Source: Brachybacterium muris (GTDB lineage: Bacteria; Actinomycetota; Actinomycetes; Actinomycetales; Dermabacteraceae). Taken from it: DNA of 64,000 nt. Numbering within the stretch: position 1 is the stretch's first letter; each line of letters begins with the position of its first letter. The stretch is from positions 1,178,001 to 1,242,000 of the forward strand of contig NZ_JAFBCB010000001.1 of assembly GCF_016907455.1 (NCBI RefSeq). The letters run 5' to 3'. This document shows positions 2,267 through 7,277 of the stretch, in pieces. The notes under the pieces were generated by a model. It had not been told where the DNA came from. It ran no database searches and saw nothing but the letters and a program-made list of their open reading frames with translations. A program made the position numbers and the translations under genes.

Positions 2267-3564
2267 CCGCCGACGCCACCACCCCCGCGAGCCCCACCAC
2301 CCCAGCCCTCTCCGCCGGGACTCTCGAGGCCGCCGCGCGCATCATGGCCGACTGCGACCGGCTCGCCGCGATCTCCGCCCTCGAGGACGGCATCGAGCGC
2401 ACCTACCTCACCCCCGAGCACGCCCGCCACAACGCAGTCGCCGCCGAGCTCATGACCGCCGCCGGGATGCGCACCTGGCAGGACGCCGCCGGGAACCAGC
2501 GCGGACGCCTCGAAGGCTCCCGCCCCGGCCTGCCCGCCCTTCTCCTCGCCTCCCACCTCGACACGGTCCCCGACGCCGGCCGCTACGACGGGATCCTCGG
2601 GGTGCTCCTCGCCATCGAGACCGTCGCGAGACTGAAGCACCGCGCGGGCGAGCTTCCCGTCGCCCTCGAGGTCGTCGCCTTCGCCGACGAGGAGGGCACC
2701 CGCTTCGGCGCGACGCTGCTGGGCAGCCGCGCACTCGCCGGCACCTGGGAGCAGGACTGGTTCGCCCTCGAGGACAAGGACGGGATCACCATGGCCGAGG
2801 CGTTCACCCGCTTCGGCCTCGACCCCGCCCGCATCGCCGACGCGGCCCTCGGCCCCGACGAGGTCGCCGGCTACCTCGAGGTCCACATCGAACAGGGCCC
2901 CTACCTCGAGGCCGCGGACCGGCCTCTGGGCGTCGTCACCTCGATCGCCGGTGCCCGACGGTTCGCCCTCACCGTTCTCGGCGAGGCCCGCCACGCCGGC
3001 GGCACCCCCTACGACCGTCGACGCGACGCACTCATCGGGGCGAGCCGCGCCGTCCTCGACATCGAGCAGATCGCCCGCGAGCGCGGCGCGATCGCCACCG
3101 TCGGCCGGCTGCAGACCTACCCGGGCGGCGTGAACGTGGTGCCGGGACACGTGGAGATGTCCCTGGACCTGCGCGCCGAGACCGACGAGCTGCGCGACGC
3201 GGTGCTCGAGGAGACCCTCGGGACGATCCGCGGCTTCTGCACCGAGCGCGGCCTCACCCTCGAGGTCGAGCAGATCCACGAGGCCTCCGCCGTGCGCTGC
3301 GCACCGCACCTCATGGACGCCGTCCGCACCGGGATCCGCTCGGTCGGCGATGGTGCCGGCGGTGATGATGCGCCGCTCGAGCTGTTCTCCCGCGCCGGAC
3401 ACGACGCGATGGCCATGGCGGCCCTCACCGACATCGGCATGCTCTTCGTCCGCTGCGCCGACGGGATCAGCCACCACCCCGACGAATCCGTGACCACCGA
3501 GGACGTCGCCGCAGCGCTCGACGCCTTCGAGGCCGCGACCCTCGCCGCCGCGGGGATCCGATGA
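2263..3564 (+). CDS. allC: Allantoate amidohydrolase (M20 metallopeptidase family)
   Basis: 433 residues. Hydrolyses allantoate to ureidoglycine with release of ammonia and CO2. Metal-site motifs of the M20/AllC family are present in order: SHLDTV (His about 98), YDGILGV (Asp about 109), DEEGTRF (Glu 143-144), HIEQGP (His about 208) and the C-terminal 'CADGISHHPDE'. The dimerisation insertion sits between them, as usual. It starts inside the pucG stop codon and ends inside the rpiR-type start codon, so three genes form one tightly coupled operon. N-carbamoyl-L-amino-acid hydrolase and beta-ureidopropionase share this fold; the aminotransferase next to it makes allantoate the best substrate guess. 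Confidence 0.9.
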   Translation: MTADATTPASPTTPALSAGTLEAAARIMADCDRLAAISALEDGIERTYLTPEHARHNAVAAELMTAAGMRTWQDAAGNQRGRLEGSRPGLPALLLASHLDTVPDAGRYDGILGVLLAIETVARLKHRAGELPVALEVVAFADEEGTRFGATLLGSRALAGTWEQDWFALEDKDGITMAEAFTRFGLDPARIADAALGPDEVAGYLEVHIEQGPYLEAADRPLGVVTSIAGARRFALTVLGEARHAGGTPYDRRRDALIGASRAVLDIEQIARERGAIATVGRLQTYPGGVNVVPGHVEMSLDLRAETDELRDAVLEETLGTIRGFCTERGLTLEVEQIHEASAVRCAPHLMDAVRTGIRSVGDGAGGDDAPLELFSRAGHDAMAMAALTDIGMLFVRCADGISHHPDESVTTEDVAAALDAFEAATLAAAGIR

Positions 3565-4463
3565 ACGCCGCGATCCGCGTGCTCCCGTCGGCCGGCCTGC
3601 GCGAGATGCCGCGCCGCGAGGTGCGCATCGACGCCCGCATCGACGCGAAGTATGCCGAGCTCACCCCGCAGGAGCGACGGATCTGCGACTTCCTGCTCGA
3701 GCACCTCGGCGACCTCGCCGTGTTCAGCGCCGCGGACATCTCCCGCGAGACCGGGGTGTCCAAGGCGACCGTCAGCCGCCTGTTCCGCAAGCTCGACTTC
3801 GCCGACTTCCGCGAGGTCAAGGAGCACACCCGCGCCATGCGCCGCGCCGGGACACCGCTCGCGGCACCGACCCGCACCGGCGTGCCGGGCCTCAGGCCGA
3901 GCCTCGAGGCGCACGTCCGCGCCGAGCGGGAGAACCACGACCGGCTGCTCACCGTCCTCTCCGGCGGGGCGCTCGAGGAGGCGACCGCGCTGCTCACCGG
4001 CGCGCGGCGGATCCTCGTGGTGGGTCTGCGCAACAGCTACCCCGTCGCCCTGCACCTGCACCAGCAGCTCATCCAGGCCCGCGACGAGGTGCGTCTCGCC
4101 CCTCAGCCCGGCCAGGCGGTGGGGGAGGAGCTCGCCGGGCTCACCGACGAGGACGCGGTGGTGCTGATCGGCTTCCGCCGTCGGCCGACGACCTTCCCCG
4201 CCCTCGCCGGCGCGATCGCGCAATCGCCCGCGCGCTGCCTGCTGGTCGGGGACGGCACCGCCCGCCCCTACGCCGCCGCGGCCGACCGCTGGCTCGAATG
4301 CCCCATCGACTCCGACGGCGCCTTCGACAGCTACTCCACCGCCACGGCGCTGGTGTCCCTGCTCGCCAACGGCGTGCTGAACCGGCGTGGCGCCGACGGG
4401 GTGCGCCGCATCAGCCGGATCACCGCCGCCTACGACCTCCTCGGCGAGCTCGAGGACAGCTGA
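3561..4463 (+). CDS. MurR/RpiR family transcriptional regulator
   Basis: 300 residues. An N-terminal helix-turn-helix of the RpiR type lies at about residues 30-95 ('VFSAADISRETGVSKATVSR'). A C-terminal SIS domain follows at about 130-265 ('RRILVVGLRNSYPVALH', 'EDAVVLIGFRR'). SIS domains usually bind sugar phosphates, but RpiR members also regulate purine and ureide loci, and this is the only regulator gene in the purine region. It overlaps allC by ATGA. It is the best candidate to bind the GAAAC boxes shared by the local promoters; that link is inferred from position only. Confidence 0.85.
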   Translation: MNAAIRVLPSAGLREMPRREVRIDARIDAKYAELTPQERRICDFLLEHLGDLAVFSAADISRETGVSKATVSRLFRKLDFADFREVKEHTRAMRRAGTPLAAPTRTGVPGLRPSLEAHVRAERENHDRLLTVLSGGALEEATALLTGARRILVVGLRNSYPVALHLHQQLIQARDEVRLAPQPGQAVGEELAGLTDEDAVVLIGFRRRPTTFPALAGAIAQSPARCLLVGDGTARPYAAAADRWLECPIDSDGAFDSYSTATALVSLLANGVLNRRGADGVRRISRITAAYDLLGELEDS

Positions 4464-5739: not shown

Positions 5740-5782
5740 ACGCTAGGGATCGTGTGTTTCAGCGGGCGCCTGGGCCTGTTTC
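5740..5782 (-). promoter_or_regulatory. Minus-strand promoter with 22-bp-spaced GAAAC boxes
   Basis: Read on the minus strand, GAAAC boxes start at 5782 and 5760, exactly 22 bp apart. The -10-like TAGCGT starts at 5745, 15 bp after the second box. No TTGACA-like -35 is seen. A transcript from here would have a leader of about 50 nt to the ATG at 5683. Confidence 0.6.
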
Positions 5783-5812
5783 ACGGCGGTTACATCTGCA
5801 GAGCAGACCCGC

Positions 5813-5866
5813 GAAACACATGTTTTACATGGGAGAAACGGTCCGGCCGCACCCGATTCCTAGCGT
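5813..5866 (+). promoter_or_regulatory. uraH operon promoter with 22-bp-spaced GAAAC boxes
   Basis: GAAAC boxes begin at 5813 and 5835, 22 bp apart. TAGCGT at 5861-5866 begins 26 bp after the second box, that is the 15-bp distance seen at the divergent promoter plus one 11-bp step. The two divergent promoters therefore share the same building blocks. Transcription would start near 5873 and read uraH, uricase, allantoinase, xdhC and xdh. Confidence 0.6.
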
Positions 5867-5950
5867 GGAGGAACCAGGGCGGGATCCGGCCGCGCAGCCT
5901 GTCGCAGGCGGCGCGCGGGACCCGCCGACCGCCGGAGGAAGGACGCCGTC

Positions 5951-6271
5951 ATCAGCCACGTCACCACCCACGTGCTCGACACCGGCACCGGCCGGCCCGC
6001 CGTCGGCGTCGCCGTGACTCTCCTGGATGCAGGCGGCTCCGAGGTCGCGACCGGGGTCACCGACGCCGACGGGCGCGTGCGCGACCTCGGCCCGATCGCG
6101 CTCGTGACGGGCACCTACCGCCTCCGCTTCGCGACCGGCGCCTACTACGCCGAACGCCGCCAGGTCACGTTCTTCCCCGAGGTCGAGGTGGCCTTCTCCC
6201 TCGACGAGGGCCACGCCCATGTGCCGCTCCTGCTGAGCCCCTTCGCCCATTCCACCTACCGAGGCAGCTGA
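5951..6271 (+). CDS. uraH: 5-hydroxyisourate hydrolase, apparent ATC start codon
   Basis: 106 residues if begun at 5951. A transthyretin-like periplasm/cytosol enzyme that opens 5-hydroxyisourate, the uricase product, to OHCU. The family start is MSHVTTHVLDT with a catalytic His in TTH; here the codons from 5951 read I-S-H-V-T-T-H-V-L-D-T and the protein ends with the signature YRGS. The first codon is ATC in the place where ATG is expected. A strong ribosome site (GGAGGAAGGA, 5934-5943) stands 7 nt before it. From the in-frame stop at 5861 to this point there is no ATG, GTG or TTG. The only canonical start, GTG 5972, lacks a ribosome site and would remove the catalytic His. Confidence 0.85.
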   Translation: MSHVTTHVLDTGTGRPAVGVAVTLLDAGGSEVATGVTDADGRVRDLGPIALVTGTYRLRFATGAYYAERRQVTFFPEVEVAFSLDEGHAHVPLLLSPFAHSTYRGS

Positions 6272-6272
6272 C

Positions 6273-7277
6273 ATGCTCGAGACCACCACCCCGCAGACCC
6301 CCGCCGGTCAGACCCCCGCCCCGTCGGCCGCCCCCGCGGCCTCCGTGCCCGCCGGCTCCGCCCCCACCGCGGTACTGGGCCGGAACCAGTACGGCAAGGC
6401 CGAGGTGCGGCTCGTCCACGTGGACCGCTCCACCCCGCGCCATGTCCTCACGGACCTGAACGTCACCTCGATGCTGCGCGGCGACTTCGAGGACTGCTAC
6501 CGCACCGGCGACAACGCGCGCGTCATCGCCACCGACACGCAGAAGAACACCGTCTACGCCTTCGCGAAGCAGTACGGTGTCGCCGGTCCCGAGCGGTTCC
6601 TGCTGCGCCTGGCCGAGCACTTCATGGCCGAGGGCACGTGGCTGACCGGCGGGCGCTGGGAGGCCGAGCAGCTCGGCTGGGAGCGCATCATCGCCGCAGG
6701 TGAGGGGCACGACCACTCCTTCGTGCGCACCGGCCCCGAGGTCCGCACCGCCGCCGTCACCGTCCAGGACGGCGCCGCCCACGTGATCGGCGGGATCAAG
6801 GACCTCGTGGTCCTGAAGTCGACCGGCAGCGAGTTCCACGGCTTCCCGCGGGACCGGTACACGACCCTGCCCGAGACCACCGACCGCATCCTCGCCACCG
6901 AGGTCACCGCCCGCTGGCGCTTCCGTGAGCCCATCACGGCCGACGGGACCTCCGGCGTCGACCCGGACGAGACCTTCGCGGCGGTGCGCGCGGTGCTCCT
7001 GGAGACCTTCGCGACCACGCACTCCCTGTCCCTGCAGCAGACCCTCTTCGCGATCGGCGAGGCCGTGCTCGCCGCCCGTCCGGAGCTGGCCGAGATCCGC
7101 ATGGTCATGCCCAACAAGCACCACTACCTCGTGGACCTCAGCCCCTTCGAGCTCGGCAACGACAACGAGGTGTTCATCGCCGGGGACCGCCCCTACGGCC
7201 TCATGCAGGCCGCGGTCACCCGCCCCGGCGAGCCCGACCAGCCGGCCGCCTGGGAGTGGCTCGGCGGATTCTGCTGA
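6273..7277 (+). CDS. pucL: Urate oxidase (uricase)
   Basis: 334 residues. Cofactor-independent oxidation of urate to 5-hydroxyisourate with O2, releasing hydrogen peroxide. Uricase landmarks are present: 'YGKAEVRLVHVDR', the active-site block 'TDTQKNTVYAFAKQYG' (about residues 89-104), and near the C-terminus 'PNKHHYLVDLSPF' with 'NDNEVFIAGDRPYG'. About 35 Ala/Pro-rich residues precede the catalytic core. It starts one base after the uraH stop. Having uricase directly behind HIU hydrolase lets the unstable intermediate be processed at once. Confidence 0.95.
   Translation: MLETTTPQTPAGQTPAPSAAPAASVPAGSAPTAVLGRNQYGKAEVRLVHVDRSTPRHVLTDLNVTSMLRGDFEDCYRTGDNARVIATDTQKNTVYAFAKQYGVAGPERFLLRLAEHFMAEGTWLTGGRWEAEQLGWERIIAAGEGHDHSFVRTGPEVRTAAVTVQDGAAHVIGGIKDLVVLKSTGSEFHGFPRDRYTTLPETTDRILATEVTARWRFREPITADGTSGVDPDETFAAVRAVLLETFATTHSLSLQQTLFAIGEAVLAARPELAEIRMVMPNKHHYLVDLSPFELGNDNEVFIAGDRPYGLMQAAVTRPGEPDQPAAWEWLGGFC

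Follow-up and report, generated by a model that had tools for sequence, protein, structure and literature searches.

The uraH locus and its putative divergent promoter region

The window analysed here, a stretch of 64,000 nucleotides from Brachybacterium muris, corresponds to G000:C1:1178001-1242000, where G000 is the source genome (a single contig of 3.65 Mb). The region under study carries uraH, the gene for 5-hydroxyisourate (HIU) hydrolase, and the uricase gene, with the following features.

5740-5866, no strand assigned: putative divergent promoter region, conserved with the second species, G019
5861-5863, plus strand: TAG, nearest in-frame stop upstream of uraH
5934-5943, plus strand: Shine-Dalgarno (SD) region of uraH, GGAGGAAGGA, anti-SD duplex -9.5 kcal/mol
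5948-5950, plus strand: GTC, rival non-canonical start of uraH, conserved in G019
5951-5953, plus strand: ATC, proposed start codon of uraH, identical in G019
5951-6271, plus strand: uraH, 5-hydroxyisourate hydrolase, 106 codons plus TGA (PF00576, TIGR02962, relatives in the PDB)
5972-5974, plus strand: GTG, first canonical codon downstream of the ATC, rejected as start
6273-7277, plus strand: uricase gene (PF01014), ATG start, SD-like GAGG at 6261-6264, duplex -5.9 kcal/mol

In a profile search the translation from 5951, which begins ISHVTTHVLDT and ends at the TGA at 6269-6271, matched the full TIGR02962 model with 113.8 bits (cut-off 87.45; residues 2-106), and it also matches PF00576. Its PDB relatives include 2gpz, with which the TTHVLD and STYRGS segments align, so that the N-terminal His motif and the C-terminal YRGS are both present. 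It is the single uraH match in the genome. The gene leads a divergent unit in which it is followed by the uricase gene, whose ATG begins one base past the uraH stop, then by an amidohydrolase gene, the product of which is probably allantoinase, and by xanthine dehydrogenase genes. The uraD gene (PF09349, from about 380 in the window) lies 5 kb from uraH.

The region at 5740-5866 separates uraH from a gene for an NMT1-type substrate-binding protein. Its sequence is symmetric and strongly conserved in G019, with mirror elements ACGCTAGGGATCGTGTG / CACCCGATTCCTAGCGT, mirrored CCTAGCGT elements and an operator-like inverted repeat, TGTGTTTC / GAAACACA. These features suggest an operator common to the two genes, to which the RpiR-type regulator encoded at 3561-4463 may bind. 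A sigma-70 promoter scan returned no match.

The start region of uraH

The opening codons of uraH are ATC AGC CAC. An earlier note on this DNA had read the first codon of the gene as ATC, and we find it at 5951-5953, in the frame that encodes ISHVTTHVLDT. The note was also right that the frame offers no alternative upstream, as there is no ATG, GTG or TTG between the TAG at 5861 and the ATC. Two purine-rich cores lie ahead of the codon. AGGA (5940-5943) is positioned 7 nt before it, which is the ribosome site that the note had described, and the stronger GGAGG (5934-5938) is positioned 12 nt before it and forms the strongest anti-SD duplex, at -9.5 kcal/mol, compared with -8.1 kcal/mol for infC and -5.9 kcal/mol for uricase. 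A distance of 12 nt between the strongest core and the ATC is slightly long, and this counts against reading the ATC as the start.

Folding is predicted to be weak around the SD and the ATC, and the leader RNA is no more stable than its shuffles (z about -0.1). A long GC-rich hairpin is predicted just 5' of the SD in the leader at 5868-5930 of the window and likewise in the leader at L095:9940-9999 (minus strand); the two sequences differ, and their stability is not above that of shuffles.

Near its start, uraH has a single canonical in-frame codon, the GTG at 5972. As the earlier note had pointed out, initiation there would lose a histidine: the codon follows the conserved His7 of the THVLD motif. 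It also has no SD, with a best anti-SD duplex of +1.2 kcal/mol. The residues ahead of it, SHVTTH, agree with the family consensus across actinobacteria, an agreement that would not be expected to persist if translation began at GTG 5972, and initiation at this codon is therefore unlikely. We rejected it as the start since it has no SD, drops His7 and leaves the conserved N-terminus unexplained.

Conservation of the ATC and its use by infC

A uraH match was found in seven of the 38 genomes of the genus. One of these, G019, belongs to a second species, and its UraH protein is 71% identical to that of G000; the two clusters are syntenic, with about 77-82% DNA identity. When the start codon was compared in this close relative, it proved to be ATC as in G000. 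The G019 gene reads GTC ATC AGC CAC, with AGGAGG-TCGTC preceding the ATC, which is thus 5 nt from the SD, and it has no canonical start upstream back to a stop 42 codons before. From CGTC ATC onward about 30 bases are identical in the two genomes. Little is conserved in the part of the leader that runs from the conserved block of the putative promoter to the SD; G000 and G019 differ there by a net gap of 13 nt, which shows that it is non-coding. An in-frame start further upstream was rejected, since none exists and the gap between the species breaks the frame.

The consensus of the UraH family begins M-S-H, with M at the position of the ATC, and most relatives whose UraH starts at this residue have ATG there. 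A pattern search of the genus recovered the uraH ATC site in G000 and G019 only. Across 396 genomes of the order, a search for uraH starts of the form ATH-AGY-CAY (ATC, ATT or ATA, with AGY-CAY fixed behind the start codon) found none beyond these two. Between G000 and G019, uraH shows a dN of 0.204 and a dS of 0.433, and non-synonymous sites have changed significantly less (Fisher p 0.006); judged by these rates, the gene is under purifying selection. Together with the conserved residues before GTG 5972, this argues that uraH is maintained as a full-length enzyme. Retention of the ATC in the two species does not by itself prove that selection has favoured ATC over ATG, because an unchanged base is fairly likely by chance at a dS of about 0.43.

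The same codon opens infC, the gene for IF3, throughout the genus. In all 30 members read, G000 and G019 included, infC starts with ATC AGC GAA after GTGAGGAG, with the ATC AGC at 5-nt SD spacing; the G000 copy lies at G000:C1:2452592-2453108 on the minus strand. In most of the 30 a stop is found a few codons upstream with no canonical start between, and the first canonical in-frame codon is well within the gene. These observations are strong comparative evidence that members of this genus can start translation at ATC. The starts of infC and uraH have six bases in common; like uraH, infC, a gene with ATT, ATC or ATA starts, has ATC AGC behind an SD and lacks a canonical alternative. The two differ in that IF3 regulates its own gene, infC, which is essential, whereas uraH encodes a catabolic enzyme found in a minority of the genus.

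A search of the whole G000 genome for AGGA-N4-9-ATCAGC, which covers starts with AGC as second codon, gave 102 matches, of which 101 were examined. Ten of these had no upstream canonical start, and among the ten a gene-like codon-position composition together with a known protein was found for infC and uraH only. No further convincing gene emerged from 46 examined sites out of 243 matches to AGGAGG-N4-8-ATC. Orthologues of G000 and G019 were also compared for non-canonical starts (about 240 kb from each), but this was uninformative because synteny extended for only about 30 kb and yielded only 17 pairs.

At uraH, then, there is no usable ATG, GTG or TTG, an SD precedes the ATC and the codon is conserved in G019, and on this comparative evidence uraH can be counted among the few bacterial genes in which a non-canonical start is conserved. 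The earlier note had left open two explanations, a rare start codon or a wrong base, and the identical ATC in G019 and the infC starts across the genus strongly favour the former.

It is improbable that translation begins instead at the preceding GTC (5948-5950), giving a product fMet-Ile-Ser-His. Streptomyces sigR demonstrates that GTC is able to initiate (PMC5472188), the codon is conserved in G019 and is 9 nt from GGAGG in G000, and a Cryobacterium homologue reads ATG ATC AGT (MISH). In G019, however, just 2 nt separate AGGAGG from the GTC, which is too close, whereas the ATC is at 5 nt; the family consensus places M at the ATC; and the ATC AGC start of infC in the genus has the same 5-nt spacing.

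We give less credence still to the idea that the start of uraH has been lost and that the gene is decaying or silent, with HIU left to decay by itself or only a truncated form made from GTG 5972. HIU does decay spontaneously, without the enzyme, and GTG 5972 is the sole canonical codon available near the start. Against this, uraH is intact and under purifying selection in both species, where a strong SD has been retained along with the N-terminal residues ahead of GTG 5972, and a truncated product would have neither an SD nor the conserved His. A sequencing or assembly error in a true ATG, although a change of one base would restore the codon of most relatives, is very improbable given that the independently diverged G019 has the identical codon, behind an SD of its own and without a canonical start upstream, the same error twice being very unlikely, and that ATC starts infC in every member of the genus read.

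Proposed initiation at AUC and the level of UraH

We consider it very probable that the ATC is the true start of uraH, with the strong SD partly offsetting the codon and discrimination by IF3, by analogy with other genes, presumably keeping UraH low. The initiator fMet-tRNA would begin at the AUC (5951-5953), guided by the SD. The third-position C of the AUC would then stand opposite the C of the anticodon, a mismatch against which IF3 discriminates, and the resulting weak initiation would give low UraH. The uricase gene, next in the operon, has its own SD and an ATG, and with its own GAGG uricase could be made in excess. A low level of UraH may be sufficient because HIU also decays spontaneously.

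Work on other genes makes it likely that the ATC limits synthesis of UraH. In vitro, weak or mismatched third-base pairs lead to very low expression (PMC10158994). In Streptomyces, where infC also starts with ATC, sigR has a GTC start behind a very strong SD and its synthesis is repressed by IF3; replacing the GTC with ATG, GTG or TTG leads to overproduction of SigR (PMC5472188). The sigR-rsrA operon resembles uraH-uricase in that the first gene has a non-canonical start and a very strong SD and the next gene directly adjoins it with an SD of its own, again in an actinobacterium. It differs in that the codon is GTC, the product is a regulatory sigma factor and repression by IF3 is experimental, whereas for uraH control by IF3 is predicted from the type of codon.

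Outside the actinobacteria, Listeria monocytogenes rnhC has an experimentally confirmed ATC start (PMC13068326) and, like uraH, is a gene other than infC in which this codon is conserved within a lineage, although both the phylum and the gene are different. Staphylococcus aureus ccpN (AUA) and cvfC1 (AUU) have non-canonical starts with extended SDs and a lower yield (PMC13009471). They share with uraH a conserved non-canonical start and a strong SD, but the codons are different and the reduced yield was measured in S. aureus, using reporters and ribosome profiling. For 61,358 reconstructed ancestral AUG starts, a single change to AUU is reported and no change to AUC (PMC5622118).

Natural genes with an AUC start besides infC are very few, and uraH, an ordinary catabolic enzyme gene with an ATC start known from two species only, adds to them. 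Gene finders limited to ATG, GTG and TTG would miss uraH or shorten it, as the nearest allowed start cuts off the conserved active-site region. It also offers a simple test case for whether discrimination by IF3 sets enzyme ratios in metabolic operons. A stronger proposal, that uraH belongs to a small group of IF3-responsive genes in the genus, that its ATC ties urate catabolism to the level of IF3 or the translational state and sets a deliberate ratio of UraH to uricase, and that reversion to ATG would be harmful, appears doubtful.

The position of the gene differs between lineages. In G003, G008, G012, G030 and G037 uraH starts with ATG and stands in a different arrangement; in G008 and G037, which were read directly, it either begins just after the preceding frame or overlaps the last part of it, a layout that fits a uraD-uraH pair. 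In relatives uraH is an ATG gene beside uraD; in the present lineage it leads a separate divergent operon and is preceded by a strong SD, and the AUC start was perhaps retained as a means of tuning UraH down. The G003 match (G003:C1:2731033-2731355) is in two pieces in different frames, and this copy may be frameshifted.
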